DNA of 64,000 nucleotides from Desulfobacteraceae bacterium (GTDB taxonomy: Bacteria; Desulfobacterota; Desulfobacteria; Desulfobacterales; Desulfosalsimonadaceae), in the NCBI GenBank assembly GCA_011390465.1, contig JAABSH010000004.1, forward strand, positions 62,001 through 126,000, read 5' to 3'. Shown piece after piece: positions 33,452 to 61,960 of the stretch. A program made the translations under genes and the position numbers. A model generated the notes under the pieces. The model ran no database searches, had not been told where the DNA came from, and was given only the letters and a program-made list of their open reading frames with translations. Numbering within the stretch: position 1 is the first letter of the stretch; each line of letters opens with the position of its first letter.

Positions 33452-33535
33452 AACCACAGAGAACACGGAGATCACAGAGAGGGTTGATTGCAGACATAAA
33501 AAAATCTCTCTGTGTCCTCAGTGTCCTCTGTGGTT
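33452..33535. repeat. Long hairpin of CACAGAG words, copy 3
   Basis: An arm beginning AACCACAGAGAACACGGAG pairs with the arm ending GTCCTCTGTGGTT over about 30 bases with a handful of mismatches. It sits in the gap between the M48 protease operon end and the kinase-like gene and resembles the CAGAG hairpins at 17.9 and 26.4 kb. Confidence 0.7.
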
Positions 33536-33608: not shown

Positions 33609-34532
33609 TTACAGCATCTGCCGGTAGGTCATAAACCGGTTTTTGACCTTGGCCATGCGGGCGGCGTCCGGATAGTTTTTCCGCAGGGCATAGCATTTTT
33701 CAAGCCTTGAAGACAGGGGTGGATGGGTGGAAAACCAGGACCCTTTGGTGGTGGCGGTGGCTTCTTTCTGCTGGAGCATTTTCAGGACCCGGACCAGACC
33801 TTCGGGATCGTATCCTGTGCGGTAGGCCCCTTCCATACCGGCGGCATCCGCCTCATACTCCATGTTTTTGTCCAGGCCTTTGTCAAACAGTACGGTCTGG
33901 AGATTGCCCACCATGTCCCGGAATTGTTTGCCTTCCTCCCCGTCCATATTGATGGTGCCGAGTTTGGCCGCGCCTTCCAGAAATTTGGCCCGCCGCACCG
34001 AGCTCAGGGCATGCTTGTGTGCCACATGGCCCACTTCATGGGCCAGCACACAGGCCAGTTCTGCTTCATCTTCCATGCCCTTTACCAGGGAACTGCTCAG
34101 AAAAATAATGCCCCCGGGACAGGAAAAAGCATTGTACACCGGGGAATCCACCACCACAAAATAATAGGGGATTTCCGGGCGGGAGGAGTTTTTCGCCACG
34201 ACCCGGCCCAGGGTGGTGACATAGGTCTGAAGTTTTGTGTTTTCCACCGGCAGTCCGTAATACTGAAAACCTTCCAGGGCCAGGCTTTCGCCGATGGTGT
34301 ATTCGGACTGGTAATCAATGCCCTGGGCGCTCTGAACAATACCGGTGAGGCCTTCCAGGGCCTGTTTGGCCTTGTTGAGGTCTTTGTTTTTTCCTTCCGG
34401 ATCAAGGGCTTTGAACAGGTCAAAGGCGCAGGCCGGGCCGGCGAGAAAAACAGCCACCGGGCCGATCAGTTTCAGAAAATCCCGGCGGGTGGTTTTTTTG
34501 GGGATGCGGGTATGGGATAAGGAATGGGTCAT
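33609..34532 (-). CDS. M48-family metalloprotease with Tat-type signal
   Basis: A 307-residue periplasmic zinc protease. The active-site motif is HEVGHVAHKH in VLAHEVGHVAHKHALSS, with a downstream Glu (EYEADAAGMEGAY) as third zinc ligand, as in BepA/LoiP-type M48C enzymes. The N-terminus KKTTRRDFLKLIGPVAVFLAGPACAF is a twin-arginine signal. Family members degrade or assist misassembled envelope proteins. It is the last gene of the minus-strand operon that starts at 48275, 21 bp after the SH3-domain gene, so it probably serves the same envelope system. Confidence 0.92.
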   Translation of the reverse strand: MTHSLSHTRIPKKTTRRDFLKLIGPVAVFLAGPACAFDLFKALDPEGKNKDLNKAKQALEGLTGIVQSAQGIDYQSEYTIGESLALEGFQYYGLPVENTKLQTYVTTLGRVVAKNSSRPEIPYYFVVVDSPVYNAFSCPGGIIFLSSSLVKGMEDEAELACVLAHEVGHVAHKHALSSVRRAKFLEGAAKLGTINMDGEEGKQFRDMVGNLQTVLFDKGLDKNMEYEADAAGMEGAYRTGYDPEGLVRVLKMLQQKEATATTKGSWFSTHPPLSSRLEKCYALRKNYPDAARMAKVKNRFMTYRQML

Positions 34533-34553
34533 GATTTCCTCCGTTTTTATCTG

Positions 34554-35081
34554 TTATTCAGAATATTCGCCAATTTTTTCCTGTTTTAAAAACTGCTCAA
34601 TGTCCGCGTCTGTTACCGCCAGGGATGTGACAAAATCCAGGGCATCCTGGGTTTGCTGGGGCGTGCCCGTGCTTTCCGCGTATTTTCGGGCTTCCGGAGA
34701 CAGCCCCCGGATGCTGCGGGACGAGCTGGCTGCGTCCGCGCTGATGTCGCTTCCGGTGAGTCCGCCCAGCAGGCCCCCAAGGCCGGCGCCGTCACCTTCA
34801 ATATCTTCGATTTCCGGTTTTTCTTCTGAAACCCTGCCCCGGTAAATCCAGCCGGTCAGATTGTCCGCGGTGGTGACCCGGTACCACCGGCCGTCTGTGG
34901 CCTCCAGGGTCAGTTCCGCGCCCCGGGAGAGCTCGGCAAGGGTTTCTGACGCGCTGGAACTCTCGGATTTCAATTCCGCGGTATCAGATGTGACGTATAA
35001 GGGGGTGGCGGCAAAAACCGGAAACGCCGTGGCCGCTGCCGTCAGAAACAGGAAAACAACCAAAACATGCCATTTTTTCAT
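34554..35081 (-). CDS. Secreted bacterial SH3-domain protein
   Basis: A 175-residue protein with a cleavable signal peptide (cut near AFPVFA-ATPL) and one SH3b domain (about 28-85: LYVTSDTAELKSESSSASETLAELSRGAELTL, then GRWYRVTTADNLTGWIYRGRV). A Gly-rich linker and a helical C-terminal tail rich in acidic residues follow. SH3b domains bind peptidoglycan or peptide partners in the envelope. Placed between the giant CHAT gene (28 bp away) and the M48 protease (21 bp), it may be an adaptor or a CHAT/M48 substrate. The last assignment is inference. Confidence 0.85.
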   Translation of the reverse strand: MKKWHVLVVFLFLTAAATAFPVFAATPLYVTSDTAELKSESSSASETLAELSRGAELTLEATDGRWYRVTTADNLTGWIYRGRVSEEKPEIEDIEGDGAGLGGLLGGLTGSDISADAASSSRSIRGLSPEARKYAESTGTPQQTQDALDFVTSLAVTDADIEQFLKQEKIGEYSE

Positions 35082-35109
35082 CTAAGCACCTCTTTTAAAG
35101 TGGTTTAAT

Positions 35110-38100
35110 TTAATAATAATCTCCGACCAGTGTAAAGGCCCCCCAATAGCCGGGATGGGGATACCGGGACTTGACATGAAGGGCCGCCTGGCGGAGGCAG
35201 TCTGCCTTGTTCTGGTTCATGTACAACCGGTAAAAGGTTTTGATCAAGATGGCGGTGGATACATCGCTGACCCGCCACAGACTGGAAATTACCGTGTGAG
35301 TGCCGGCGTAGAAAAATGACCGGTTCAGCCCCACCACGTCGTCGCCCGCGGTGATTTTGCCCAGCCCGGTCTGGCAGGCGCTTAAAAATACCATGTCCGC
35401 GTCCACGGTCAGGCCGAAGATTTCACCTGCTTCCAAATTACCGTCAAGGCCGGGGTTTGTAAAGGTTTTATCCTCTGCTTCGGAGAGTTTAATGGCCGAG
35501 AGCAGGGGATTGACGGGATCAAATTCCCCGTGGGACGCGATGTGGATAATGTCAAAGCCTGCGATGTTGTTCACCACCCAGGCTTCGGTGGCGTTTTCAC
35601 GGGTCAGAAGGGTGATATCCGGAAAATTCCATTGCAGGGAGCTGACTTCCTGCTCCGCAAAGGGCAAATCCAGAATCGGATCGCCCAGATCCGGATTGCC
35701 CACGGCCAGGACCCGGGGACTGCGGTAAGGACGGGACGTGCGCCGGCTCAAGGTGTATTCCAGCACAGCAGCGCTGGGCACATAAAACAGGGCATGGTGG
35801 TCCATGACAAAACCCGCATTATTTTTCAATGTGGCAAAAGACAGGTAATGCAGGGCCCCATGCGGGCAGATGCCCACGGTATGGGAATCTGCAAGATAAG
35901 GGGCTGCCGGTGCCATGAGCGTGGCGTATAAATCCTCGGCATGGGTTTCATAGGGCTCGATGTTCTGGATGATGCGCCGGTATTCCAGTATTTTCTGCTC
36001 CAGCGCGCCGCGATCCGCCGGGGTTCGCACCAGGCGCAGCCGGTTTTCCGGCTGATCGCTTTCCGGCGTATTGCGCTCTGGTTGCAGAATCCAGCACAGC
36101 ACTTCATCGTCTAAGAGATAATAGGAAAGCAGCACAGTGCCGGGATCCAGGTAGCTGATGAGCCGGTCGATCTCCACCGGCGGTACGCTTACCATGGCAG
36201 CCAGCTGGGGGTTTTTAAGCTGCATGTCGATCATCAAATTGTCCAGGTCATGGGATAAATCCGCCACGGTTTTGCGGTAGATCTCCTGTTCCGCGGGCGT
36301 TGCCGCCGCCAGCAGTTTTTGCGCTGTATCAAGTTCTGAGTTGAGAATCTGCTGCCGCTGGTACCATTTTTCGTCCTGGTCGCTGGAAAACCGGATATTC
36401 TGGCCCCCGAGAAGATCAATAAAATTCCGGGCCCGGGAACGTTCCGCGATTTCAAAAGCAGCTTCCGGCCGGTTCTGATCCGCCAGGAGTTTTACCAGGG
36501 TTTCATATACAGAGAGCTTGTTGGCAATAAAATTTTCCCGAAGCTGATTTACCTTTATATCGCTTCGGAGCTGTTCAATAATGTCAAGGGCTTCACGCAG
36601 CAGGGATTCCGCTGCTGAAGGATCGCCGGCAGGGTGAATGCGGAGCTTTGCCAGACCAAACAGGGCCCGCCACAGGGTTTCCCGGATCATCATGGATTCG
36701 GACAGCTCCCGGGCGGTTTTGTAGGCGGTTTCCGCTGCTTCGTATTGTTCCAGGGCCGCCAGGGCATGGCCCTTGCCCAGAATGGCTTTGGCCGCGTTGA
36801 TGCGGTTGCCGATGGCAGTTGAAATCTTATAGGCCTGATCAAAGAGCGCCGCGGCCGCCTCCGGCTGGTTCAGTTTTAAATAGGTCAGGGCTTTGTTGCG
36901 ATAGTCATAGGCCAGACCCCATTGACTGCCAATGGCTGTGTCAATTTCAATGGCCTGGTCAAAGGTCTCGAGAGCAGTCTCAAAATTACCCATATCCCGG
37001 TGGATGAGGCCCATGTTATTGAGGGTGGAGGCGACTTCATCTTTGCGGATGCGCAGATTGCGGGCATTTTCCAGGGCGTTTGCCAGAACGGACAGGGCCT
37101 TGTCGTAATTGCCCAGGGTCCACCAGATCAACCCTTCGGTGTTTTGGCAAAGCACCTGCATCAAGGCAAGGTTTTCCTGTTTTGCGATAGTGTAACTCCG
37201 GCGCTGAAAGGTAAACGCCTGTTCGTATTTTCCCTGAAACCAGGCATTGTTGGCTTTTTCAATCAAAATGGCGGCCTGCATGTCCGTTGCTTCCGGTGTC
37301 CGGGTGGTGATAAGGGCAAGGCTCTCATCAAAACAGGTTTCCGCTGCCGTAAAATTTCCCAGCAGCCGGTGGCACCGGCCGATGTTGAGCTGGGATTCAG
37401 CGGTTTTTTCAACTTCATCTGCTGCTTTAAAAATGTCAACCGCCTTTTCATAGCTGGTGATGGCCATGGCATACTGATTGAGGCGCAGGTCATACACCCG
37501 GCCGATGTGCAGAAACTGTTCCCCCAGCAGGGTGTCCCGGTTCAGATCTTTGCTCAGGTCTGCCGCGGTTTTGAAACGGGTGAGGGCGCCGTGGAAGCTG
37601 GTGGCATTTTCAAGCACAATGCCCAGTTCGGCAACCGCGTTGACCAGATCGTCGTCCGGCGGCTGTTCAGCCATGATGGTGACGGCCTGTTCCATCGCGG
37701 GAATGGCTTTTTCATACTGATTTTTTTTGGCGTGCATCAGCCCCAGCCGCAGCAGGGCTTCCGCGTGATCCCGGGAATCCGGGGCCATGTCTGAATAAAG
37801 AGATACCAGCTCCCGGGCAAACACCAGGGCCTGATCCATGCGGCCGGCCCGGTAGGCGCTTTCCCGGCCGTATTTGTAAAGATCCGGCAGATACGGGTCA
37901 AAGGCCGGAATTTCATTGGCAACGGTAATGGCATGGGTGAAAAAAACCGCTGCCCCGGCATAATCCTGATGGTCAAACCGGGTGCGCCCGGCTTTGACGT
38001 AATGGATAAAATTGCTTTTTGCAAATGCGGCAGCTTCTTTTTTGTTCATGCCCTGGTATCCTAAATAAAGCACCGGGTAGCGTGCCGGATAAAGTTCCGG

Positions 38101-41100
38101 GCCGGGATGTTTTTGAAGGGCTGCGGTCAAGGCGTCCAGACTGGATTTTTCCGCGTAATTTGCAAGAACATCCGTCGTAAAAGCCGGATAAACAGCCGGA
38201 TCAACAGCCGGATTCGAATCCTGCTGTTCCGTTACAATCAGGGAGGGACACTGAAAAATGGCAAAAACATGGCCCAGAATAAATATATCCGCAGGATCGG
38301 CAGGCTTGGCAGTGTTGACCATGGCAAGGGACAGACTGCCGGCCCGGGCCAGCAGGGTTTCCAGGGAAGCCCGGGCATTGTCGTCCGGATAAACAGCCAT
38401 GATCTGCCGGGCTGGTTCACCGGGGGTGACCGGCACCGTGGTGGATCGTACCGGTCCCCGGGCCATGACCAGGGTGTTGATGTCTGACAGGGATTGGAAT
38501 CCGGCATCCGGATCAATTTCGGTTTTTTCAGGTGAGTTGAAATCCGTCAGGTGATAAGTCTCAATCACGGAAGATGGAAACGCCATGTCCGGAATGGCCA
38601 TGAGGTTTTGTTTAAACGGTTTCCGGCTGGTGATGCATCGTTCCAGATGCTTGGCGCTCAGGCAGAACGGAAAGCGGTTATCAAGGCCCGTGGAAAAGGG
38701 AAATTCAGTGGCAATATACGGGGTTGTCCAGTCAACGGCGTCCGCGATTTTTTCCTTCAGGATTTTAGGTGTGTCCGCGATAAAGCCTGTGGTTTCATCG
38801 TCTCTGGTGATCAGAAAAACCGCGCAGGGAAACTGCTGGAAGCCGGAAAAAACAATTCTTGCCGCCGCGTCATCCATGGTGAGGGTGTCTGCCAGATCCA
38901 TGACGTCAAAGGGAACCGGGGCCAGCAGGGTGATAAAATCCGGTGGCGATCCCGGGGGGTGATCGTAAAACGCATCCTCACAGGTCTGATAATACTGGTG
39001 AATCTGATCCTTCAGGATGCGGGAAAGGTCCTGGGTCTGGCTCTGGCTCTGGGCCAGGGTCTGGTTGTCTTGGGTTTGGCTGGTTTCACGGGCCGGTTTC
39101 AGGTTGATTTCAGCCAGGTCTTGGGCGGTTTTTTCGATTTCCTGGTCCAGAGCCATGAGAAAAATTGCAAGATCCCGGACGGTGTTGTCCTGGATCGTCC
39201 GGTACGGCCCGGGCAGGTTTTCATTGTCCGGCCCCAGGAATTCCGCGAGCAGGGTTTGTTCATTTTCAAGGCGCTGGCGGACAAATGGCCGGCGCTCCGG
39301 GGTTGCGGCGGCCAGTTCTTTTTCAAGGGACTGGAGGGTGGTGAGCCGGGGAAACAGATCTGCAAAAAACGCTTTGTCTGCCCGGGTCCTGGCCCGGACA
39401 AAAGGCGCCAGCCGGTGAAACCGCTCCAGTTCGGAAATGGTTTCCGCCAGATCAAGAGCGGCCGCTGCATTGCCTGCGGCCAGTTGTTTAAACACCAGGG
39501 TGGAAAAAGCACCCGTAATTTCTCCGGGCAAACATCCAGCCCGGGAAAGGGGGACTTGGGACAGGATTTCAAGGGCGTTTTCAAGCGCACCCAGCCCGGC
39601 CCGGGCCCGCCATTGGATATCCGGAAACACGCCCATTTCGGAAAACTGAAGGGCGTTCTGGAAGTTTTGTGCTGCCGCGTCCGGGTCCCCCAGATCATGG
39701 CAAAGCGCAGCCAGGTTCAGATACAGGGCTGAACCGAGTTCCAGATCCTGCCGGGTAAGCGCGGATTTTTGGCTTTTAAAATTGGCAATCCCCCGCATGA
39801 AGTGGTGGAACGCCTGCTGTTCCAGAAGCGTTTTGAGAACCGCGGTTTCTATTTTTGCCGGTGTTTGGGCTGCTTCAGCAGTCACATCAACGGATACCGG
39901 GCAGGCGTCTGCGGCATTGGCATAAAATACTCCCATCAGATTGTGAAACCGCAGTACCAGAGAAGCGCCGCTGATATCTCCGGTGCGGGTGAGCAGGGCT
40001 TCCGCCTGCTGCTCCAGTTCCTGGAATTCCCGCACCTGGCGGCCCGGCCACGAGTCTACCATCAGAGCGGTTGCGGCCGCAGCCATGTTAAAAAGATTCT
40101 GGGCCGTGCTCACGGGATTTGCAAGCCCAAGACAAAGCCGGGCGGAATCCGCAAACCGGTCAAAAGCCTCAGCCGGGTCCTTGTCCGCATATGCCATGAG
40201 CCCTGCCCGGTGGTGCAGCAGGGATACGCCGTATTGATCTGCTTCAGCAATTTTTTCCAGATCCACGTACTCCTGGACCCGGGCGTCCAGCTCCCGGCGG
40301 GCATCTCTGAGATGGCCCAGCTCCAGCTGAATCCGGGAGATAAACGTATCTGCCAGGCGTTTTTCCTGAGCCTCTGAAAATCCGTGGGCTGCCTGGGTGG
40401 CGCCGGCCGCGTCCAGGGAGGTGGATACGGAAATACCAATGAGTCCGGATTTTTCTTTTTCCTGTTTTTCCGGCACGCCGTGGCGCTGGAGCAGGGTGCG
40501 CACCTGCTCAAATCCTTCCAGTGCTTTGGTGAGCAGCCGGACGCGCTGCCGGCCCGTGGCTGTAGCGGCCAGCAGATAGGTATTATAGCTGACGGATCGC
40601 TGGTTGCGGGCCAGGTTTTGAAAGTTGCCGGATTTTTCATTAATGGAAAAGACCTGCTCAAAGATATGGGCGGCTTTTTCAAATTCCTGATTTTCCTGAT
40701 ACGCCAGGCCCAGCCGGTCTGAAATATCAGCCTGAAGTTCCACCAGCCGCTCGGGAAAGGCCAGAGCATCCTGAACCTGGCGGGTGAGCGCATTCAGGTT
40801 TTGCCGGGCATCGGAAATGGGCCGGCGGGCCGGAAGATTTTCAGTGGCCGCGTTAAACGCCGCTGCCAGATTTGCGGCGGCCTGGTTGACATCCGTCTGG
40901 TCTTGGATCAGACGTTCCATATTTTTTTTGTAAATCTGCCATTTTTCAGACGGCGGGGCAGCAGCAGCATCTGCAAGGGCCGCGGACCGAAGGTTTTGTT
41001 TGGACTGGCGCAGGGCAAGCGCGTCTGCGGCGGGTTTGGTGGTTTCCAGATCGCCTGCTGCCAGAATAATCCGGTCTTTGATGTATTGGCGCAGCCGGTC

Positions 41101-43914
41101 AAAGGCCCGGGTCGGGGCCAGGGGATCCATGTGGGTGGTGATCTGGTCTCTGGCCTGGGAAAAAAGGGTAATGGTGGTTTCCATATCATTGATCTGAAAC
41201 GCGCATTCCCCGAACCGCTTCAGAAAAACCAGGTGGGTGGAAACCTCTGGAAACGGCATTTCCCGCTCCTGGCGGCGGGAATAAAATTCATATGCCTTGT
41301 TGTACTGGCCCAGCAGATAATAACTGTTTCCCAGATTCAGTTCCAGATTGGCCGCGTTTTCCGGGTCAATGTCCGAATCATTTAAAAAATAGGCTTTTTG
41401 GTATGCCATGAGGGCTTTTTCCAGCCGGTTGGACTGGTTGTACACGGTTTCCTGAACTTCGTACACATATCCCAGGGTCTGGTGAAAATACTCAACACTG
41501 CTGTCGTAGCGCAGGGCTTTTAAGATCAATTTTTCAGCGGATTCAGCATCATCAGCGGTGTTCCGGTAGGTCAGGCAGAGTCCGGTGCAGTACAGGGCCA
41601 CTGGGTTGTCCGGAGCCGCGTCCAGGGTCTGTCGGTACCGGGCCAGCACGCTTTCAATATCGCCCGCGGCTGCCGCGCATTTGATATATCCCCGGTGGGC
41701 CGGTACAATGGTGCTGTCATAGTCCATGAGTTCCTTGAACAGGCTCCGGGCGGACGGAATTTCCCCCAGCCGGTACAAAAATTCTCCTGCTGAAATGTTT
41801 TTCCGGATATACCCCTGGCGGGCCAGCTGGTAAATCCGGTCCCCGGCGTCGCGCAAACGGATTTCCTGCTCATAGAGGTCAATGGCCTCCCGGAACCGTT
41901 CTTCGCGGTATAAAATTTCCGCAAGGGACAGCCGGGCCGCAGCGGTCTGGGTGGTCAGGGCGGAAGCAGCGTCCAGAACATTCTGATACGCGGTTTTTGC
42001 CTGGGACAGATCTCCGGCCGCATAATAAATATCGCCGATGCGGTTCAAGGCGCCCAGGGCCAGGGGCGGGGCCGTGGCGCGGTAGGTTACGGCAATAAGG
42101 TTGAGGCTTTGGAGTTTTTCCGTCATTTCAGGTGATAAATTTTTGGAAGTTTTTTTACTTACCGTCTGGTCTTCGGCGGACCGGGTGTCCAGAATTTGGG
42201 CAATGATGTGGTCAACGGCCTGGTCCACCCAATACCGCTCATCCGGATATCCCGTGATAATGGACCGCAGGGTGTCCGTGGCCTGGTCCCCGGCCCCTGT
42301 GGTTTCATAAATCCGGGCTTTGAGAAACAGGGCATGGGCTTTTTGGGCGGGTGTGGCGGCCGGGTCGGACAATACCGCCTCCATTTGATCCAGGGCCCCT
42401 GTTTTTTCAAGTAATCCGGCATTTGCCGCAAACAGCAGCCGCACTTTTTCAAGCCGGGCTTCGGCCGCAATGGTGCCGGGATGGGCCGCGGCAATGTCTT
42501 TCAGAAACCCCAGGCTTTTTTCGCGCAGGGCGGTTTTTTCAGAATCTTTGGTGGCGTTCGCCGCCGCCTGCATAAATTCAATGCCCACCTGGTGCACGGC
42601 CGCCAGTCCGGCTTCCGGCAGCAGGTCCGCATACCGGGTGCGCACAAACTGATACGCGCCAAGGGCGGATGCCGGCAGGTTGAGATCCTGATAAATTTGT
42701 CCGGTTTCAAAACCGGCTTTTGCGGCGATTTTTTCATTGTCTGAAAATTTTTCCACCACCCGGATGTAGGCAAGAATCGCGGCATAGGGATCATAGGGGA
42801 TCTGCCCGGCAATGGCCTGGGCGGCTGCGAGTTGGGCCTCTGCGCTGTTCATGGTCTGCACGGCCCCTTGTTCGGGAATGGCCCAGCAGTTGCTGACACC
42901 GGCCCGGTCGGAGAGAAAATAAATCCGGCCGTCTGCTGCAAAGGGTTTAAACGAGATCTGGTCCAGGGGGGTCACCGGAAACGGAATGGCCCCGTCCGTC
43001 TTGATGTCAACGCCGATGTTGAGTCGGCAGATCACGGCATGATCTTCTGCGGTGAGCTGACCGTCATGATTGGTGTCTGAGCCGATTCTGGCAAAATACA
43101 GGGTGCGGCTGTCCGGATGCCAGGACGGAAACATGTCAATGGCCGGGCCGCTGGTCACCTGCCGCAGAGTGGAATCCCGGGTGGTTAAGATAAAAATATC
43201 GCCGGAAGCATCTCTTCGGGTGGACACAAAGGCCAGGGAGTTGTTGTCCGGAGAAAGGGCGCCGTTTGCGGCGTTGCCCCCGGTCATAATGGCAGCGGGC
43301 CGGGGAAGGGGCTGGTTGGGAGCATTGCCTGCGGAGCGCAGTTTTTCAAGGTCTGTTTTTTTAAGATCCATAAAAACCAAGCCCCGGCCCTGGTTGCCGG
43401 TGGCCTGATGAAAATAGAGAAACCGGCCGTCATTGGAAAAAAAAGGGGCACCGTCTTCGGTACTCCGGCCGGTCAGCCGAACCGGTACCGGGTCGTCCAT
43501 TTGCCGGTCCATGAGATAAATATCGCCTTTAACGTCAAACGCCGTGTCCACATAGGCAATAAACCGGCTGTCCCGGGAAATGGCTGGGCTGGATTTAACG
43601 GATGGGCCGGATGCCAGTTTTTCCGGCAGCAGCACTTTTTCCGGATCAGCAGACCCCAGCCAGAGCGTGAGCTGATTGTCCTCTCCGCTGGTGTAGACAA
43701 TATGCCGGCCGTCCGGGGAAACTGCCATGTCCAGCACGGATTCCGTGCGCGAGGTAATCTGTATTGGGGGATGCATGAGATCATCCGTATCCGGCAGGGC
43801 CGGCGCGGCGTACGCCTGTTGTATCGCACCCATCAGGCAAACTGCAAAAATTGCGGTCCAGCAGGCTGATAATACCAATGCCGCCAATGGATTGGAAATT
43901 AGCTGTTTTTTCAT
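35110..43914 (-). CDS. Giant exported propeller-TPR-CHAT protease-like protein
   Basis: A 2934-residue protein. A signal sequence (about 1-37) is followed by a TolB/WD40-like beta-propeller (about 45-340, blades such as SPDGRHIVYTSGED, SRDSRFIAYVDTAF, SPDNNSLAFVST; one contains an EF-hand-like DTNHDGQLTAED loop). Then come very long arrays of TPR repeats in two blocks (about 380-1600 and 1960-2520). The C-terminus (about 2610-2934) is a CHAT domain (caspase fold) with the catalytic pair H2795 (IASHGEFDP) and C2847 (FLSACQTGLG). A degenerate CHAT-like region lies between the TPR blocks. The ATG overlaps the stop of the lipoprotein gene by four bases. A secreted or periplasmic caspase-like protease activated through its TPR/propeller part is inferred; its substrate may be a neighbour. 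Confidence 0.88.
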   Translation of the reverse strand: MKKQLISNPLAALVLSACWTAIFAVCLMGAIQQAYAAPALPDTDDLMHPPIQITSRTESVLDMAVSPDGRHIVYTSGEDNQLTLWLGSADPEKVLLPEKLASGPSVKSSPAISRDSRFIAYVDTAFDVKGDIYLMDRQMDDPVPVRLTGRSTEDGAPFFSNDGRFLYFHQATGNQGRGLVFMDLKKTDLEKLRSAGNAPNQPLPRPAAIMTGGNAANGALSPDNNSLAFVSTRRDASGDIFILTTRDSTLRQVTSGPAIDMFPSWHPDSRTLYFARIGSDTNHDGQLTAEDHAVICRLNIGVDIKTDGAIPFPVTPLDQISFKPFAADGRIYFLSDRAGVSNCWAIPEQGAVQTMNSAEAQLAAAQAIAGQIPYDPYAAILAYIRVVEKFSDNEKIAAKAGFETGQIYQDLNLPASALGAYQFVRTRYADLLPEAGLAAVHQVGIEFMQAAANATKDSEKTALREKSLGFLKDIAAAHPGTIAAEARLEKVRLLFAANAGLLEKTGALDQMEAVLSDPAATPAQKAHALFLKARIYETTGAGDQATDTLRSIITGYPDERYWVDQAVDHIIAQILDTRSAEDQTVSKKTSKNLSPEMTEKLQSLNLIAVTYRATAPPLALGALNRIGDIYYAAGDLSQAKTAYQNVLDAASALTTQTAAARLSLAEILYREERFREAIDLYEQEIRLRDAGDRIYQLARQGYIRKNISAGEFLYRLGEIPSARSLFKELMDYDSTIVPAHRGYIKCAAAAGDIESVLARYRQTLDAAPDNPVALYCTGLCLTYRNTADDAESAEKLILKALRYDSSVEYFHQTLGYVYEVQETVYNQSNRLEKALMAYQKAYFLNDSDIDPENAANLELNLGNSYYLLGQYNKAYEFYSRRQEREMPFPEVSTHLVFLKRFGECAFQINDMETTITLFSQARDQITTHMDPLAPTRAFDRLRQYIKDRIILAAGDLETTKPAADALALRQSKQNLRSAALADAAAAPPSEKWQIYKKNMERLIQDQTDVNQAAANLAAAFNAATENLPARRPISDARQNLNALTRQVQDALAFPERLVELQADISDRLGLAYQENQEFEKAAHIFEQVFSINEKSGNFQNLARNQRSVSYNTYLLAATATGRQRVRLLTKALEGFEQVRTLLQRHGVPEKQEKEKSGLIGISVSTSLDAAGATQAAHGFSEAQEKRLADTFISRIQLELGHLRDARRELDARVQEYVDLEKIAEADQYGVSLLHHRAGLMAYADKDPAEAFDRFADSARLCLGLANPVSTAQNLFNMAAAATALMVDSWPGRQVREFQELEQQAEALLTRTGDISGASLVLRFHNLMGVFYANAADACPVSVDVTAEAAQTPAKIETAVLKTLLEQQAFHHFMRGIANFKSQKSALTRQDLELGSALYLNLAALCHDLGDPDAAAQNFQNALQFSEMGVFPDIQWRARAGLGALENALEILSQVPLSRAGCLPGEITGAFSTLVFKQLAAGNAAAALDLAETISELERFHRLAPFVRARTRADKAFFADLFPRLTTLQSLEKELAAATPERRPFVRQRLENEQTLLAEFLGPDNENLPGPYRTIQDNTVRDLAIFLMALDQEIEKTAQDLAEINLKPARETSQTQDNQTLAQSQSQTQDLSRILKDQIHQYYQTCEDAFYDHPPGSPPDFITLLAPVPFDVMDLADTLTMDDAAARIVFSGFQQFPCAVFLITRDDETTGFIADTPKILKEKIADAVDWTTPYIATEFPFSTGLDNRFPFCLSAKHLERCITSRKPFKQNLMAIPDMAFPSSVIETYHLTDFNSPEKTEIDPDAGFQSLSDINTLVMARGPVRSTTVPVTPGEPARQIMAVYPDDNARASLETLLARAGSLSLAMVNTAKPADPADIFILGHVFAIFQCPSLIVTEQQDSNPAVDPAVYPAFTTDVLANYAEKSSLDALTAALQKHPGPELYPARYPVLYLGYQGMNKKEAAAFAKSNFIHYVKAGRTRFDHQDYAGAAVFFTHAITVANEIPAFDPYLPDLYKYGRESAYRAGRMDQALVFARELVSLYSDMAPDSRDHAEALLRLGLMHAKKNQYEKAIPAMEQAVTIMAEQPPDDDLVNAVAELGIVLENATSFHGALTRFKTAADLSKDLNRDTLLGEQFLHIGRVYDLRLNQYAMAITSYEKAVDIFKAADEVEKTAESQLNIGRCHRLLGNFTAAETCFDESLALITTRTPEATDMQAAILIEKANNAWFQGKYEQAFTFQRRSYTIAKQENLALMQVLCQNTEGLIWWTLGNYDKALSVLANALENARNLRIRKDEVASTLNNMGLIHRDMGNFETALETFDQAIEIDTAIGSQWGLAYDYRNKALTYLKLNQPEAAAALFDQAYKISTAIGNRINAAKAILGKGHALAALEQYEAAETAYKTARELSESMMIRETLWRALFGLAKLRIHPAGDPSAAESLLREALDIIEQLRSDIKVNQLRENFIANKLSVYETLVKLLADQNRPEAAFEIAERSRARNFIDLLGGQNIRFSSDQDEKWYQRQQILNSELDTAQKLLAAATPAEQEIYRKTVADLSHDLDNLMIDMQLKNPQLAAMVSVPPVEIDRLISYLDPGTVLLSYYLLDDEVLCWILQPERNTPESDQPENRLRLVRTPADRGALEQKILEYRRIIQNIEPYETHAEDLYATLMAPAAPYLADSHTVGICPHGALHYLSFATLKNNAGFVMDHHALFYVPSAAVLEYTLSRRTSRPYRSPRVLAVGNPDLGDPILDLPFAEQEVSSLQWNFPDITLLTRENATEAWVVNNIAGFDIIHIASHGEFDPVNPLLSAIKLSEAEDKTFTNPGLDGNLEAGEIFGLTVDADMVFLSACQTGLGKITAGDDVVGLNRSFFYAGTHTVISSLWRVSDVSTAILIKTFYRLYMNQNKADCLRQAALHVKSRYPHPGYWGAFTLVGDYY

Positions 43915-44519
43915 GATGCTTCCTTTTTAACCTGCCAGTCGCCGTTTTCATCCTGGATTTTTTCGCCGGGTCTGGCGTTTTCCGCGTTGATTTTTGCAAA
44001 CACGCTTTGGACCGCCCCAAGCTCGGATTCATCCAGGTCCTCATTCATATGGATGACCCGCATCATGATGGCCTGGCGGGCTTTATTGATTTTTTCGATC
44101 ACAAAATTAAATTCTTCCCGGGTATACCGGCTGGCAAAATCCTGAAGCGATTCCGGCACATTTTCCCGGTCAATGCCAAAGGCCGTCACCAGGCCCTGAT
44201 TGTTTTCCCCGGCCCAGCCCAGCTGTTTAAACCGTTCCAGATCGTCTGCGTGAAAATCAAGGGTCTGCATGGCTGCCACCGCATCTTTGTATTCCCTGCT
44301 GTGGGCCGGAGGCCGGGAGATCTGGCCCGTGGAATCCACTCCCCGGACCGACGCGGCCAAAAGCATCTGGGTGTCCAGGGCGTTATAAGCGCCCAGCACC
44401 TGGTTTTCCAATGCAGTGCGTTCGCTGAGCATTTCCACCTGAACATTTGCCAGGGTGCATCCAAAAAACAGGCACCCGGCGACAAAAACCGCAATGAGAA
44501 AAAAAACATGTGTTTTCAT
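43911..44519 (-). CDS. DUF1318/YdbL-like lipoprotein
   Basis: A 202-residue lipoprotein: signal with lipobox at VAGC (C16) or FFGC (C21), then VEMLSERTALENQVLGAYNALD, which is typical of delta-proteobacterial DUF1318 proteins, and a C-terminal segment ending ENARPGEKIQDENGDWQVK that matches the end of YdbL-type proteins (Pro-Gly, then Gly-x-Trp). In E. coli YdbL acts with the AsmA-like YdbH and lipoprotein YnbE in a bridge for phospholipid transport. Here the upstream gene (12 bp away) is AsmA/YdbH-like, so the same type of complex is likely, with the YdbL part carried on a lipid anchor. Its stop overlaps the CHAT start (ATGA). Confidence 0.72.
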   Translation of the reverse strand: MKTHVFFLIAVFVAGCLFFGCTLANVQVEMLSERTALENQVLGAYNALDTQMLLAASVRGVDSTGQISRPPAHSREYKDAVAAMQTLDFHADDLERFKQLGWAGENNQGLVTAFGIDRENVPESLQDFASRYTREEFNFVIEKINKARQAIMMRVIHMNEDLDESELGAVQSVFAKINAENARPGEKIQDENGDWQVKKEAS

Positions 44520-44531
44520 GGGAAAATCCTT

Positions 44532-47500
44532 TTATGGCGATTCAAAAGAAAGGGTTGTGGTGTTATCGTCTGTTTTCGTGAAAACAATGCGCCGGGCCCC
44601 GGCCTTTTGCAGAAGATCTGAAACCTGTGCCAGCCCGGCAAGATAGGGTTCAAATTGATTGAGTCCCGGAACGGACGCAATATTGAGCCGCCGGATTTGG
44701 GGCAGGGGGATGTCCATGCCCTTGATGCTCACCATGCCGCTGAAAGACAAAAATCCGTCCCGGATGTCGATGCGAATATTTTTGGGAGACCCGGTTTTCA
44801 GAAACTGGCGCTGGGCCATGATGGCTTCATTGCTTTCATAGGGGTCCAGAGCATAAAGCAGCCGCTCCAGGGCCCGGGCCCCGATCCGGGTGAAATTCAG
44901 GGTAATGCGGGCATTTTCCAGCAGGGGCCGGAGCTCGTGAGTGATGGGGAAATCCGCGTACAGGGCTCCGCTGATGTCTGCGCTGGCGCGGTCTTGCCCC
45001 GCAAACGCCCGGGGAAAGACCTGGGAGAAATTGATGCCGGAAAAGGTAAGAGCGGTGTTTGCGCCAACCATCTGCTCGCTGCGGGTCAGGGCAATGGATC
45101 CGTTGATGGTGCCCCCCAGAAGATCCAGTTGAAAATAATCCATCCGGGGCAGGCCGTCTGCCAGCCGCAGCAAAAGCATGGACGGGCCCATGGTCAGGGG
45201 AAACGGGGCTGCCATAATGTCTGCCGTGTCAAAGGAAAGGGCCGGGGCCGGGTTCATGCGCTCGTGAAGATACCGGATATGCTGCAGGATATCGCCAGAC
45301 CGAACTTCACCGGTCCGGGCCGAAGAAATTGAAAGAATGTCCTGGGAAAGCCCGGGTGTTTCAAAAACCTGGCCCGGCCGGGCAGACGTGCCGATCAGAT
45401 AGGTTTTTGAAAGATCCATATTTGTAAAAAGGGTTTCGATCGTCGCGGTATCCGGCAGGGTGATGTTCATGTTTTTGGTGGTGATCGCCACGCTGCCGCT
45501 CACAGCTTGCTCCGGCTGATTTTGAAAGGAAATATCACATCCCGCAAAGCCGCTTACATCAATGGCTTCCAGCCCTGGAAGGCCTGCCTGTTTCAGCAGG
45601 TTGCATTCCGGCACTGTGATGGTCGCGGATACATCTGCCCCAAGCATCCTCAGCCAATCTGTTACTGGCGGCAGGGGCGATGCAGAGATGAGAGTGTTCA
45701 GGTGATCCAGGGTTGCGGTGATGGATTCCTGAACCCCGGCCGGCTCCATGGCAAAAGACTGGGAAAGGGAAAGTGTGGAAGCATCCCGGTGGGACGCGGA
45801 AATGGAAAAATCGGCAGTTAAAGGGGTAGCGGCAGCCAATCCGGGAATGCCGGTTATGGCGTTTGCGTGAATACCAGAGGCCAGTTCGCCGATGCCGGTA
45901 TTGCCGTCAAGGCGATACTGAAGCAGGGGCGCTCCCTCCAGTCCCGCAAGGGTGACTGGCGGGGCATCCGCCGTGGGAATTTTAAATTCTGAATTGTTCA
46001 GCAAAAGTTCAAGATTGAGAGCATTGACAAATCCCAGGTTGCCGGCGATTTTTTTGTGTGTGAGGGCTTCTATGGTGGTTTCATCCGGCCGCCGGCCTTT
46101 GGCGGAAAGGGCAAGGGCCAGATCACCGGTTCCGGAAATGCCGGCCCTAAGATTGCGGGGCAGAGTTTCAAACAGGGCCCCAAGATCAGCGGACACAGCC
46201 AAGTCTGCGTCAAAGGAGACGTTTCCCGTATCTTTTGCGGTGGCAATAAGCGAGATGTCCACTATCGAGATGTCCACTGCGTTTTCCGCCTGCACCCGGG
46301 CGATAAAATCTGAGATATCCACAGACAGGGGGGACAGTTGGTTCAAAATAAAATCCCCTGCTGCCAGATGAATGTCCACGCCGGTTTCCATCTCCCCCAT
46401 GCCCGGGGCCAGCAGGGTGATGCGGCCGGCCCCGGCATCCAGATGATCCAGGGCCGCCTGGATGCCGCCCCCGGGGGAAAGAACGGCGGAGAGGTTGAGG
46501 GACTGGGAAATGGTTTTTATGCGTGCCAGTTCCGGCAAGGTGACAGCGTCAATTTTAAGTTTATCAGACAGGGAAAGATCGCCGGCAATCCCGAAATCCG
46601 ATTTTTCAGATAACCTGAAGTTTTCAAGATTTGCGTTCAAAGAATCCAGCCGGATGCCTGAGAGCGTAATCGCGCTGGTGTCATGGCCGGATATCAGGTT
46701 ATCAACGGCAAGTCCCAGCACAAGCCCGGCACTCACCGGGAAAAGATCCTGAAGCCCAGTGGTGAGCTTATGCAGCGTGAGCTGGCCGCCTTCCACCCGG
46801 ACAAGGGGGGAGGCGTCTGCTGCATTTGTGAGCGTTACGGCCGGCAGCCGGATTGTCAGGTCCCTTACCTGCGCGTCAGCAGCCCCAGCAGGCAGGTATC
46901 CGTCAAATTTCAAAAGGCTTGCGGAAATCAACGCCTTATCATCAGAATGACGGGGCAGGGCAAGGGTATCCGGCACAAAAGCGCCGGCAAAATTAACGAT
47001 TTCATCCACATCCAGATGCAGGGGGGAAATGGCAAAATTGATTTTTCGGTTATCCTGCATCAGATGTTCCACCTGGCCGGTTGCCTGGAGGGTGCTGTTT
47101 TCGAGCAGATCAAGGGTTAGGTTTTCTATCGCCAGCGTTTCTTCCGGCAGGTTGGCTGTTCCCTTGAGAAGAATGCCGAAGTTGCCCGGGCCAAGGGATT
47201 TTTCGCCAACAAGCGGCCCGGAAAGGGCCAGGCCGGCCGCAGACAAAGTGGCATCAAACGCCAGGGGCTGGTCCGGATCGGTGGTGGCTTGCGCCTGAAA
47301 ATCAATGTTGCCGTCAATGTCGTCCGGAGAAAGGTTTTTTGGCAGAAAAGGCGCAGCTGCTGCCATGACGGTTTCAAGCTGGAGCTGAATAGTGCCTTTT
47401 GCAAGAGATGCGGCCATGTCCGCGGTGAGCTCGGCTGCAATTCCGGGCAGATCCGCAAAAAGACGGCCGGCCATGCGGTCCAGGGTTAAAATGCCGTTTT

Positions 47501-48275
47501 CGTCAAAAATCTGCTGAAGCGCAAGGGACAGGGTGGACCGGGGAAGCCGGGTCTGGCTGCCGTTGACATTAAGATTCACGTTAAGCCCCAGATCAAGGTG
47601 GAGCGGTGCTGTCTTTAACGACGGCGCGTCAAGAAAGAGCACAAGGTTTTCAATCTCATAGCGCTCATTTTTGGCCTGATCTTCATACACCACATGGATG
47701 TTGTCAAACCGGATGGATGTGGTGATATCCCGAATCACGGCCGGCAGAGAAGGCGGTGACGTTTTTTTCGGCGGCGTCTCAGGGGCAGGAGATTTTTGTT
47801 CTGATGATTTTTGAGTCGTCCCTTTTTTAGTCGTCTGAGAGCCGGCAGCACCCAGGGTTTCAACATTTAAAACACCGTCCGGATTTTTAACAATATGAAC
47901 ATCCAGACCGGAAACCTGAAGCTCAAGCTGTATTTTTTGATTTACCAGGCTTTTGATATCCGGTTTCAGGATAAACGCATCAAGGGCTGCTATGGGCTGG
48001 CGTGAAAATGCCGGCTCGTCCGGAACGGAAAGATGGGTAATTTGGATGCCCCGGGACCAGGACCACTCAAGATTCCCAAGGGCCACTTCCCGGCCAATAG
48101 CATTGGATGCGGTTTTTTGGACAGCCCTGTTGCACCAGTCCGTGGACACAATTGTCGGCAGAAACGCCAGAACCAGCCCAACCACCAGCACCAGCCCGAG
48201 AATGAAATAAAGGCTGTATTTCAGTAATCGCAGCAGGCTTTGAAAGAAATGGCGTTTTTTGTATGATTTCGGCAT
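44532..48275 (-). CDS. AsmA/YdbH-like intermembrane transport protein
   Basis: A 1247-residue protein anchored by one N-terminal helix (about 14-38, LLKYSLYFILGLVLVVGLVLAF) with the rest in the periplasm as extended beta-repeat. The first about 150 residues have the AsmA-type start (VALGNLEWSWSRGIQITHLSV, then a low-complexity Ser/Thr/Pro/Lys linker at about 145-175). The body is the repetitive beta-groove pattern (SLALQQIF, LDLLENSTLQATGQV, AIENLTLDL) and the C-terminus (LSFSGMVSIKGMDIPLPQIRRLNIASVPG, DLLQKAGARRIVFTKTDDNTTTLSF) resembles the YdbH end. AsmA-like proteins form lipid-conducting bridges between membranes. It is the first gene of the five-gene operon running to 33609. Confidence 0.8.
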   Translation of the reverse strand: MPKSYKKRHFFQSLLRLLKYSLYFILGLVLVVGLVLAFLPTIVSTDWCNRAVQKTASNAIGREVALGNLEWSWSRGIQITHLSVPDEPAFSRQPIAALDAFILKPDIKSLVNQKIQLELQVSGLDVHIVKNPDGVLNVETLGAAGSQTTKKGTTQKSSEQKSPAPETPPKKTSPPSLPAVIRDITTSIRFDNIHVVYEDQAKNERYEIENLVLFLDAPSLKTAPLHLDLGLNVNLNVNGSQTRLPRSTLSLALQQIFDENGILTLDRMAGRLFADLPGIAAELTADMAASLAKGTIQLQLETVMAAAAPFLPKNLSPDDIDGNIDFQAQATTDPDQPLAFDATLSAAGLALSGPLVGEKSLGPGNFGILLKGTANLPEETLAIENLTLDLLENSTLQATGQVEHLMQDNRKINFAISPLHLDVDEIVNFAGAFVPDTLALPRHSDDKALISASLLKFDGYLPAGAADAQVRDLTIRLPAVTLTNAADASPLVRVEGGQLTLHKLTTGLQDLFPVSAGLVLGLAVDNLISGHDTSAITLSGIRLDSLNANLENFRLSEKSDFGIAGDLSLSDKLKIDAVTLPELARIKTISQSLNLSAVLSPGGGIQAALDHLDAGAGRITLLAPGMGEMETGVDIHLAAGDFILNQLSPLSVDISDFIARVQAENAVDISIVDISLIATAKDTGNVSFDADLAVSADLGALFETLPRNLRAGISGTGDLALALSAKGRRPDETTIEALTHKKIAGNLGFVNALNLELLLNNSEFKIPTADAPPVTLAGLEGAPLLQYRLDGNTGIGELASGIHANAITGIPGLAAATPLTADFSISASHRDASTLSLSQSFAMEPAGVQESITATLDHLNTLISASPLPPVTDWLRMLGADVSATITVPECNLLKQAGLPGLEAIDVSGFAGCDISFQNQPEQAVSGSVAITTKNMNITLPDTATIETLFTNMDLSKTYLIGTSARPGQVFETPGLSQDILSISSARTGEVRSGDILQHIRYLHERMNPAPALSFDTADIMAAPFPLTMGPSMLLLRLADGLPRMDYFQLDLLGGTINGSIALTRSEQMVGANTALTFSGINFSQVFPRAFAGQDRASADISGALYADFPITHELRPLLENARITLNFTRIGARALERLLYALDPYESNEAIMAQRQFLKTGSPKNIRIDIRDGFLSFSGMVSIKGMDIPLPQIRRLNIASVPGLNQFEPYLAGLAQVSDLLQKAGARRIVFTKTDDNTTTLSFESP

Positions 48276-48302: not shown

Positions 48303-48668
48303 TCAGGAGTCAGAAGTCAGAATCGCGCGGATGTACCCCTCAAGTAGCTTACTGACTTCTGCAATTATCCGCAAGGGCTCAGAAACGTCGCCATATTCAA
48401 GATCATTGGCAAGTATCAGATAATACCGGCATTCCTCAAGAGACCCCTGGGCAATGTTGAGAAACCGAATTTTATCTTTTGGCCCCCGCTTCCTGAATCC
48501 TTCGGCTATATTGGCTGCAATGGATACCGATGCCCGACGGAATTGAGAAGACAGGCCATAAATTTCAGATCTGGGAAACGACTGCGTCAACCGATAAACC
48601 ACAAGCACAAATTGATGGGCTTTTTGCCAAACGATCAGATCCTCAAACCGCTTTGCCGGCTCCCTCAT
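48303..48668 (-). CDS. Four-helix-bundle protein (S23/bAvd-like)
   Basis: A 121-residue protein of the four-helix-bundle family named from genes found in 23S rRNA intervening sequences and related to bAvd of diversity-generating retroelements. Signatures: FEDLIVWQKAHQFVLVVYRLT, LSSQFRRASVSIAANIAEGF, and FLNIAQGSLEECRYYLILAND. No reverse transcriptase or variable repeat is nearby. The C-terminal residues LTSDS are encoded by the TCTGACT-type repeat that flanks the gene, and a longer heptamer array (48665-48738) precedes it. Function of stand-alone members is unknown. Confidence 0.88.
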   Translation of the reverse strand: MREPAKRFEDLIVWQKAHQFVLVVYRLTQSFPRSEIYGLSSQFRRASVSIAANIAEGFRKRGPKDKIRFLNIAQGSLEECRYYLILANDLEYGDVSEPLRIIAEVSKLLEGYIRAILTSDS

Positions 48669-48739: not shown

Positions 48740-50296
48740 CTATAAAACATACCCCTTTGCCAGTTCCTGATACGCCTCAACCTGCCCACTTACCCAGGCC
48801 GCATCTTTTTTCAGCTCCACCGCCATCATCTCCGCCACCCGGGGCGCCATTTCCATGCTGGCCCGGGCATCCAGAAGCAAAGCCCGGGTGCGTCTTGACA
48901 GAAAATCCTCAACTGTCCGGGCCATTTCCCGGCGCACCGCCCAGACCACTTCACCGGCCAGGGTGGTGAAGTTTTGATGCAGGGGTTTTTTCAGCTCGGG
49001 CTGGTCATAGATCATATCATTGATGACCGGGGCATCCGCGCCGTAAATGGCCAGGTCCCCGAATTTTTCCGAATGATTGTGGTATCCGTGAATCTGCAAA
49101 TCTGCCGTGACGGAGGACTTTTCATCCAGCCGTGCCACCATGGCGGCCTGGTCAATGGTGTCTTCGGCCATGCGTCGGCAGGTGGTCCATTTTCCGCCGG
49201 TAATGGTGACCAGGCCGGACCGGGAAATATAGATGGTGTGGTCCCGGGAGATGGCCGCGGTGTTGCCATCTTCGCCCTGACTCACCAGGGGCCGGAGACC
49301 GGCAAACATGCTCAGGACATCGGATGCCACTGGATCTTTGGTGAGATACTTGGCCGCGTGGGACAGCAGGAATTCAATTTCTTCAGCCAGGGGCCGGGGT
49401 TCAAGGGACGCTTCTTTGACCGGCGTATCTGTGGTGCCCACAACAACTTTGTCATGCCAGGGCGTGGCAAACAGCACCCGGCCGTCCGCGGTATGGGGCA
49501 CCATAATGGCACTGTCGCCCGGCAGAAATGATTTGTCCAGCACCAGGTGAATGCCCTGGCTCAGGGTGAGCATGTTTTTGGCGTTCGCATCATCCATGTG
49601 AATGATGTCATCCGTAAACACGCCGGTGGCATTGATCACGCCTTTGGCCCGGAGCTCAAATTCCTGTCCGGTTTCAACATCTTTTGCAAGAACACCGGCC
49701 ACAAATTCTTTATCCTTGATCAGGCCGGTGACCTTGACATAATTGAGCACGGTTGCGGACTGATTCACCGCGGTCTGGGCCATGTTAATGGCCAGACGTG
49801 AATCGTCAAACTGGCCGTCGTAATAGATCACCCCGCCGCGAAGGCCTTTTGGCTCCACCGTGGGAAGGTATTCCAGGGTTTTTTCCTTGGACAGAAATTT
49901 GGAGTGCCCGAACCCGTGCCGGCCGGACAGCAGATCGTACACTTTCATGCCGATGCCGTAAAACGGGCCTTCCCACCAGTCATAGTTGGGCACCACAAAC
50001 CGGAGGTTGTGAACCAGGTGGGGCGCGTTTTTCCGCAAAAGTCCCCGCTCTTTCAGGGCTTCAAGCACCAGGGACACATTGCCCTGCTGCAGGTACCGCA
50101 CCCCGCCGTGAACCAGTTTGGTGCTGCGGCTGGAGGTGCCTTTTGAAAAATCATCCTGCTCCAGCAGCAGGGTGCGGTACCCGCGGGAGGCGGATTCAAT
50201 GGCCCCTGCAAGACCAGTGGCCCCGCCGCCGATGATGATCAGATCCCATGGGGTATCCGTATTTTTAAGTCGTGACAGCATCTCTTCCCGGTTCAT
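48740..50296 (-). CDS. glpD: Glycerol-3-phosphate dehydrogenase, FAD-dependent
   Basis: A 518-residue membrane-associated flavoprotein that oxidises sn-glycerol 3-phosphate to dihydroxyacetone phosphate and passes electrons to quinone. The FAD motif IIIGGGATGLAGAIESASRGY is near residues 20-40, followed by GTSSRSTKLVHGGVRYLQQGN (typical GlpD), and ITGGKWTTCRRMAEDTID towards the C-terminal domain. Length matches GlpD (about 500-560). ATG 50296 is preceded by AAGGAGGAAACA. No glycerol kinase or transporter is adjacent. The stop codon lies at the edge of the heptamer repeat array. Confidence 0.95.
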   Translation of the reverse strand: MNREEMLSRLKNTDTPWDLIIIGGGATGLAGAIESASRGYRTLLLEQDDFSKGTSSRSTKLVHGGVRYLQQGNVSLVLEALKERGLLRKNAPHLVHNLRFVVPNYDWWEGPFYGIGMKVYDLLSGRHGFGHSKFLSKEKTLEYLPTVEPKGLRGGVIYYDGQFDDSRLAINMAQTAVNQSATVLNYVKVTGLIKDKEFVAGVLAKDVETGQEFELRAKGVINATGVFTDDIIHMDDANAKNMLTLSQGIHLVLDKSFLPGDSAIMVPHTADGRVLFATPWHDKVVVGTTDTPVKEASLEPRPLAEEIEFLLSHAAKYLTKDPVASDVLSMFAGLRPLVSQGEDGNTAAISRDHTIYISRSGLVTITGGKWTTCRRMAEDTIDQAAMVARLDEKSSVTADLQIHGYHNHSEKFGDLAIYGADAPVINDMIYDQPELKKPLHQNFTTLAGEVVWAVRREMARTVEDFLSRRTRALLLDARASMEMAPRVAEMMAVELKKDAAWVSGQVEAYQELAKGYVL

Positions 50297-54458: not shown

Positions 54459-54465
54459 GGAATAA

Positions 54466-57180: not shown

Positions 57181-57264
57181 TTAAGTGTTGCTAAATGCAG
57201 TTATTCCTGTTTATTAAACATGATGCTCCCGTTAAAAGTCGGTTTCCGTTATGCTGGACTTGAT

Positions 57265-57356
57265 CCGTCATCCAGAACATATTTAAATTGATGGATTCCC
57301 GCTTTCTCTGGAATGACGAGATAAGACAATTTTTGACTTTTTACGAAGCCGTCAAA
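57265..57356. repeat. Dispersed repeat with inverted arms and GACGGCTTCG-type terminus
   Basis: An inverted pair CGTCATCCAG / CTGGAATGACG lies at 57265-57274 and 57309-57318, with GGATTCCCGCTTTC between them. The segment ends in GACTTTTTACGAAGCCGTCAA, the reverse complement of the start of the repeats at 16244 and 26168. It sits in the 209-base gap before the GT2 gene. Confidence 0.6.
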
Positions 57357-57389
57357 CATTGAAACAATAAGCTTTAAGAAAGGTAAATT

Positions 57390-58082: not shown

Positions 58083-58092
58083 ATCAGGGCTA

Positions 58093-59511: not shown

Positions 59512-59539
59512 TTTGCGCATCATAGGATTATAAATATTT

Positions 59540-61225: not shown

Positions 61226-61227
61226 TT

Positions 61228-61959: not shown

Positions 61960-61960
61960 T

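Follow-up and report, generated by a model that had tools for sequence, protein, structure and literature searches.

In a 64,000-nucleotide stretch of a Desulfobacteraceae bacterium genome (contig JAABSH010000004.1, the whole stretch being called the window below), we describe a minus-strand operon of five genes that brings together a predicted lipid-transfer bridge and a giant secreted protease. These two proteins are nearly always co-inherited in sulfate reducers and their relatives, even where their genes lie apart, pointing to a cell-envelope system that has not been studied. In order of transcription the operon encodes Asm, an inner-membrane-anchored protein of the AsmA clan and predicted bridge-like lipid-transfer protein (44532–48275, 1247 residues), a YdbL-like lipoprotein with lipobox Cys21 and a conserved N-terminal stretch (43911–44519, 202 residues), a giant exported protein with TPRs and two CHAT modules, here called the CHAT protein (35110–43914, 2934 residues), an exported SH3 protein with a Gly-rich linker and a conserved C-terminal region (34554–35081, 175 residues), and an exported M48 metalloprotease with an HEVGH motif and a twin-arginine-like signal (33609–34532, 307 residues). 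The five open reading frames (ORFs) lie in series where an earlier note on this DNA had placed them, on one strand with spacings of 12, −4, 28 and 21 bases, and that note was also right that every product carries a membrane or export signal. These signals, identified by reading and alignment, are a single N-terminal transmembrane segment in Asm, a lipobox in the YdbL-like protein, Sec-type signals in the CHAT and SH3 proteins and the twin-arginine-like signal of M48. The genome of the window holds a single CHAT match and a single DUF1318 match.

The five-gene order recurs across the phylum, and the arrangement is beyond chance. Among 38 relative loci, fetched for any DUF1318 match, 17 carry the long YdbL-like gene; six of these hold all five genes in order, eight keep the same order up to the end of the contig or stretch, two show Asm and YdbL without an adjoining CHAT gene and one has YdbL alone. 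A contig scan with one CHAT region (profile A6) gave 49 named loci, including Desulfobacterales, Desulfovibrionales, a Desulfobulbaceae and a Desulfohalobiaceae bacterium. Asm, YdbL and CHAT follow each other at 39 of these 49; YdbL and CHAT alone are seen at five (four starting near a contig end), and at the last five neither Asm nor YdbL is in view (one at a contig start). On the 3' side of CHAT we found SH3 then M48 at 12 loci, a fused SH3-M48 gene at seven and SH3 alone at a contig end at two; the other 28 have neither, many of them explained by the contig end. The deep branch G292 (locus L172) has the five genes in order, with Asm matching at only 86 bits and SH3 at 76 bits. A phmmer search (E 1e-4) with five flanking and the five operon genes over the 38 relative loci, many of which end early at contig ends, recovered the operon genes alone, and the conserved unit appears from this comparison to be the five operon genes. 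YdbL-like and CHAT genes were also seen at L107, in Candidatus Magnetocorallium paracelense, which belongs to the Nitrospirota by the taxonomy used; this is either a transfer or a binning error.

The genes are also retained together where they have dispersed. An order sample of 242 genomes was searched with cut-offs of E≤1e-20 for CHAT (A6) and YdbL-like (A1) and E≤1e-30 for SH3; the relatives behind profiles A1 and A6 are themselves part of the count, and draft contigs limit the linkage calls. CHAT was found in 29 of the 242 genomes and YdbL-like in 29, an identical set with none discordant. Eleven of the 29 have the pair unlinked, either split between contigs or widely separated. A contig of 8,027,777 bases in G148 carries CHAT at 0.42, SH3 at 1.56 and YdbL at 7.51 Mb. 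Genomes with the ordinary short DUF1318 (e.g. G020, G037, G038 and G039, and further G041, G045, G049 and G050) gave no CHAT match, and both kinds of DUF1318, short and long, occur in G003, G057 and G059. A strong SH3 match is present in 28 of the 242, 26 of them within the 29 CHAT genomes; the two outside are G262, where a CHAT C-terminus adjoins SH3 at a contig end, and G112, which is 65% complete. In a phylum sample of 297 genomes, CHAT was found in 11 and YdbL-like (A12) in 8, all 8 within the 11; CHAT without YdbL-like is limited to G360 (86% complete), G387 (79% complete) and G502.

After dispersal Asm mostly stays by YdbL, and SH3 by M48. Asm still adjoins YdbL in 8 of 12 dispersed genomes; a long Asm match lies elsewhere in G057, G102 and G150, and G326 has only a 54-bit match. 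M48 adjoins SH3 in all nine dispersed genomes whose SH3 locus was read. Full-length Asm occurs in none of 20 CHAT-negative genomes tested, 11 of which gave N-terminal matches of 45–76 bits; the Asm profile also picks up N-terminal regions of about 200 residues elsewhere, and the three such proteins examined belong to the AsmA family. A loss of SH3 and M48 was considered for the eight genomes whose CHAT loci lack them as neighbours (L113, L115, L118, L119, L107, L105, L110 and L090). Seven of the eight hold SH3 elsewhere, and M48 adjoins it in the six that were read whole, so that loss was rejected for these seven; the genome of L090 has no SH3. The earlier note had held that an unconserved order or an unrelated distribution of the two gene groups would speak against the operon; the order is kept, and in the order sample the Asm/YdbL pair and CHAT share their distribution even without linkage. 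From comparative sequence data, the five genes therefore look like one functional unit.

Behind its Sec-type signal, the CHAT protein has a TolB-like propeller and TPRs, then a degenerate CHAT module, further TPRs and finally the catalytic CHAT domain. The N-terminal propeller (42880–43776, about residues 47–345, limits approximate) matches PD40 with 77.6 bits and the TolB model of NCBIfam with 75.1 bits against a cut-off of 343; it is like TolB of Tol-Pal in being a PD40 propeller, but stays below the model cut-off and forms part of a much larger protein. The catalytic domain (35119–35940, residues 2659–2932) matches PF12770 with 185.8 bits. Its dyad H2795/C2847, as named previously, is invariant across 57 aligned CHAT proteins wherever the rows reach it, with the His in all 57 and the Cys in 56 plus one gap. 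D2884 is present in 55 of the 57, with two gaps, and we take it to be comparable to the Asp of the separase S1 pocket. Other acidic residues are named for separase, gingipain and MALT1 in PMC4626109. We infer that the CHAT protein would act as a protease with Arg at P1.

The degenerate module (37960–38952, residues 1655–1985) was recognised from its AlphaFold2 model (predicted local distance difference test, pLDDT, 87.2; predicted TM-score, pTM, 0.88) together with VIA, which returned separase 5fc2 with Z 15.2 and Csx29 8d9f with Z 14.5. Foldseek gave nothing at E 0.001; its best match was GSU0716 (3bij) at 3.0e-3, and separase 5mz6 followed, likewise short of the cut, at 6.8e-3 with a probability of 0.99. 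Comparing the mid region with the catalytic CHAT domain in hhalign (10 sequences each) yielded no match (probability 0.1). In the alignment, neither of the two expected strands is followed by a conserved His or Cys, and we therefore read the predicted module as an inactive pseudo-protease, a reading made without residue-level superposition. Near the site, H1882 (34/43) and C1889 (23/43) alone are frequent among His and Cys residues, and they sit within and behind the helix that separates the two strands. The catalytic CHAT profile gave no match among PDB sequences at E 0.01, and the CHAT protein scored 26.6 bits on the NCBIfam Csx29 model, whose cut-off is 300.

The giant CHAT protein is related to separase, the enzyme that separates chromosomes in human cells. 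Csx29 (TPR-CHAT) of Craspase is built from a TPR domain, then a pseudo-caspase and then an active caspase domain (PMC10028731). Like separase and Csx29, the protein described here combines a helical-repeat scaffold, a pseudo-protease and an active clan CD protease, and its degenerate module shares their predicted fold; unlike them, it is exported, about 2900 residues long and equipped with a TolB-like propeller, and its degenerate module stands as a complete CHAT-like unit of its own, some 670 residues before the catalytic one. This second module, the propeller, the SH3-M48 fusions and the gene dispersal with retention of parts all go beyond the earlier account. In G089, the CHAT gene was found in two distant pieces of one chromosome-sized contig, the N part at L086 and the C part, which adjoins SH3-M48, at L148, reflecting a rearrangement or a misassembly.

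The SH3 protein matches SH3_3 (PF08239) with 31.1 bits (cut-off 27), and its Gly-rich linker and conserved C-terminal region show in an alignment of 7 sequences. In the linker, the motif SSSRSIRGLS (34698–34727, residues 119–128) is the proposed CHAT cut site. R-S-x-R is found in the linker of 42 of 46 SH3 proteins, fusions and the window copy counted, and Asp or Glu stands three residues ahead of the first Arg in 37 of the 46; a separate, earlier count found the linker motif in 35 of 38 SH3 proteins vs 32 of 863 unrelated ORFs of 150–250 codons. The cleavage consensus of separase is D/E-x-x-R with Arg at P1, as given in PMC4626109, and the conserved D-x-x-R-S-x-R of the linker resembles this cut site at the sequence level. 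Natural SH3-M48 fusions occur at seven loci, six of which keep the motif between SH3 and M48, and all fall in one well-supported clade with Desulfovibrionaceae.

M48 itself matches Peptidase_M48 (PF01435) with 111.9 bits. Both Arg and the Phe of its twin-arginine-like TRRDFLK are invariant in seven of seven aligned sequences, and the pattern RRxF[LIV] is present in just 13 of 42 M48 proteins of the wider set. HExxH is kept in 37 of these 42; the five without it are the fusions L103, L114 and L125, which by their sequences are pseudo-proteases, as well as L135, part of a gene broken into two ORFs, and L142. On NCBIfam models M48 scored 76.2 bits for BepA (cut-off 570) and 40.7 bits for LoiP (cut-off 365). 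Like BepA and LoiP it is an exported M48 protein with HExxH, but it remains far under both cut-offs and is paired with or fused to SH3. Paralogous SH3-M48 pairs (L126, L127, L128 and L133) were seen away from CHAT; the two whose surroundings were checked, L127 and L133, adjoin a CHASE2-adenylate/guanylate cyclase gene, and L127 also a FadL-like outer-membrane protein. By sequence these pairs most likely constitute a separate SH3-M48 system.

Pfam confirmed the family assignments made before for the YdbL-like, CHAT, SH3 and M48 proteins, whereas the AsmA assignment rests on orthologs and fold, as the window copy of Asm has zero Pfam matches at E 0.1. Among 34 Asm orthologs, 15 match AsmA (PF05170), 18 DUF748 and 16 YhdP; Asm is placed in the AsmA clan because of these ortholog matches and its predicted bridge-like fold. 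Its model (residues 40–1235, from an alignment of 34 sequences) is nearly all beta, with pLDDT 82.8 and pTM 0.55. Foldseek at E≤0.001 gave two matches, the LPD-3 lipid-transfer complex (7.4e-5) and ApoB100, and in VIA an ApoB fragment scored Z 16.9, while Vps13 matched across the N-terminus with Z 8.9. The likeness of the modelled fold to lipid-transfer bridges is a resemblance, not proof.

The YdbL-like protein matches DUF1318/YdbL (PF07027) with 31.6 bits (cut-off 27) in its C-terminal residues 91–198, and its Cys21 is invariant in 18 of 18 aligned proteins and in all 38 rows of profile A12. Against the PDB, its profile gave a weak match (E 0.071) to 28oj, named probable chaperone-like protein YdbL. 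The ydbH-ynbE-ydbL operon of E. coli encodes an AsmA-like phospholipid bridge (PMC8593681). As in that operon, an inner-membrane-anchored AsmA-clan protein is directly followed by a DUF1318 gene, here starting 12 bases downstream of Asm, and an outer-membrane lipoprotein partner is expected. Unlike in E. coli, the 12-base gap leaves no separate small YnbE lipoprotein gene between the two, and the DUF1318 protein itself is the lipoprotein; no sequence match of Asm to YdbH was found (hhalign probability 1.7, YdbH entered as a single sequence), and CHAT, SH3 and M48 are added. Asm and the YdbL-like protein may transport phospholipids. At L033, L036 and L037 we noticed a second pair, a 940-residue transmembrane-anchored protein followed by a DUF1318 lipoprotein beginning CVTINIYFPAEK, which is perhaps an ordinary YdbH-YnbE/YdbL system beside the one described.

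Putting these proteins together, we favour, at a probability of roughly 0.4, a dedicated envelope system of three modules in which CHAT would cut the SH3 linker to release or activate M48. Asm and the YdbL-like protein would make up a lipid bridge leading from the inner membrane to an outer-membrane lipoprotein; CHAT would be a periplasmic separase-like protease with a docking or sensing propeller, TPR solenoids, a pseudo-protease module and the active CHAT domain; SH3 and M48 would be a wall-binding protein and its metalloprotease. CHAT might monitor the bridge or the envelope through its propeller and TPRs and, once triggered, cut the SH3 linker at D-x-[SA]-R|S-x-R, whereupon the release or activation of M48 would lead to clearance of faulty envelope parts. 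That CHAT cleaves its SH3 neighbour, as the earlier note suggested, is plausible because the SH3 linker holds the conserved separase-type Arg motif. A version in which a periplasmic separase-like switch governs the intermembrane bridge, the double-CHAT protein sensing the state of bridge or envelope, cutting the SH3 wall tether at D-x-x-R and freeing M48, is put forward only tentatively. No coupling of a lipid-transfer bridge to a clan CD protease is known to us from any system.

Several observations weigh against this model. The window SH3 protein has Ser, not Asp, at the acidic position of the linker motif, and four of the 46 SH3 proteins, including those of deep-branch L172 and fusion L114, lack RSxR altogether. 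Three SH3-M48 fusions are without HExxH. No proper SH3 was found in four CHAT genomes (G046, G094, G117 and the genome of L090). The four paralogous SH3-M48 pairs have A-R-G-L at the place of the motif, without R-S-x-R, and the L133 pair comes from G144, a genome without a CHAT match. Csx29 itself cuts a partner for which the passages of PMC10028731 consulted describe no Arg site. On the bridge side, the LPD-3 likeness of the Asm model is local, with a TM-score of 0.16, and many outer-membrane barrels score Z 8–12 in the same VIA list.

The alternative that fares best, rather unlikely in our view, is a constitutive assembly and quality-control machine, in which CHAT would mainly be the scaffold by which the Asm bridge is built or positioned, and CHAT and M48 would clear misassembled parts continuously and without a signal. 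The giant TPR/propeller architecture, the score of M48 on the BepA model, though far under its cut-off, and the housekeeping-like distribution of the genes are what one would expect of such a machine, but the presence of a degenerate module and of a conserved motif in the SH3 linker suggests cleavage that is regulated and specific. Less probable still is an active CHAT protease with another substrate, be it the YdbL-like protein, a linker in Asm, M48 or something encoded outside the operon; the SH3 motif would then serve the SH3-M48 pairing. As the paralogous pairs by the CHASE2-cyclase keep R-G-L, one of them in a genome without CHAT, the linker motif may indeed serve M48, and its reading as CHAT-specific is weakened; the retention of CHAT in genomes without a found SH3 fits here as well. 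The R-S-x-R and Asp part, however, is present in the CHAT-linked SH3 proteins and missing from the four paralogs.

We consider it very unlikely that the modules are merely neighbours by descent, with no functional link past the inherited operon. Operons persist by inertia, the sampled genomes are related, and naive hypergeometric values (10^-37 for CHAT/YdbL and 2x10^-29 for CHAT/SH3) ignore phylogeny. In a quick tree of 57 rows, which left out near-identical rows and G150 (CHAT in two frames), the linkage states cluster, so that there are fewer events than genomes. Against mere descent, the parts were kept together after dispersal in 11 of the 29 genomes, CHAT-YdbL linkage changed five times by parsimony, two of these changes being forced by well-supported branches, and single-module genomes, with regard to CHAT and YdbL-like, number none in the order sample and three, all CHAT-only, in the phylum sample. 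Scarcely credible is a death or antiphage effector, akin to the death switch of the earlier note, in which CHAT would kill the cell upon envelope breach, for although CHAT proteases work in CRISPR-guided caspase systems (PMC10028731), the PADLOC defence library yielded a TPR match alone, and the operon is conserved across the phylum with long-term co-retention of the lipid bridge.

It is an open question how phospholipids traverse the periplasm and what regulates AsmA-type bridges. As the bridge is inherited with a protease module, proteolytic control of such a bridge becomes testable with purified proteins, in a group for which our literature search found no such system described: no paper combined "CHAT domain" with "AsmA" or "CHAT domain" with "M48", the hits for CHAT domain and Desulfo were the Craspase/TPR-CHAT work and a cyanobacterium, and DUF1318 was mentioned for hemp rhizosphere. 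If the favoured model is true, the separase-like logic of a helical scaffold, a pseudo-protease, an active CHAT domain and an Arg site in a partner's linker would operate outside the cytoplasm.

Upstream of Asm, the window carries a four-helix-bundle IVP-type gene (48303–48668, minus strand; PF05635, TIGR02436) and then a GlpD-like FAD gene (48740–50296); downstream of the operon follow a cytidylate-kinase-like gene, a CDF transporter and an HpaB-like gene. The IVP-type gene, which sits between the GlpD-like gene and Asm with short AGAAGTCAGAAG / GACTTCTGACTTC repeats on its flanks, was absent from the 38 relative loci by phmmer and is possibly a small mobile insertion. An inverted repeat of the type ACCACAGAGGACACTGAGG...CTCTGTGGTT, seen by eye at 33455–33535 on the 3' side of M48, is a possible terminator or dispersed hairpin. 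Predicted promoter sites (20 vs 11.1 in shuffles) and terminator sites (48 vs 26.6) were set aside, many of them lying inside coding sequence. A PIN-domain protein (PF13470, 50953–51387, minus strand), followed by a small frame that reads as ribbon-helix-helix-like, likely forms a toxin-antitoxin pair with it. Finally, the G+C content falls to 0.37–0.41 over 54001–64000 vs about 0.47–0.57 in the first 50 kb, making this stretch a possible island.

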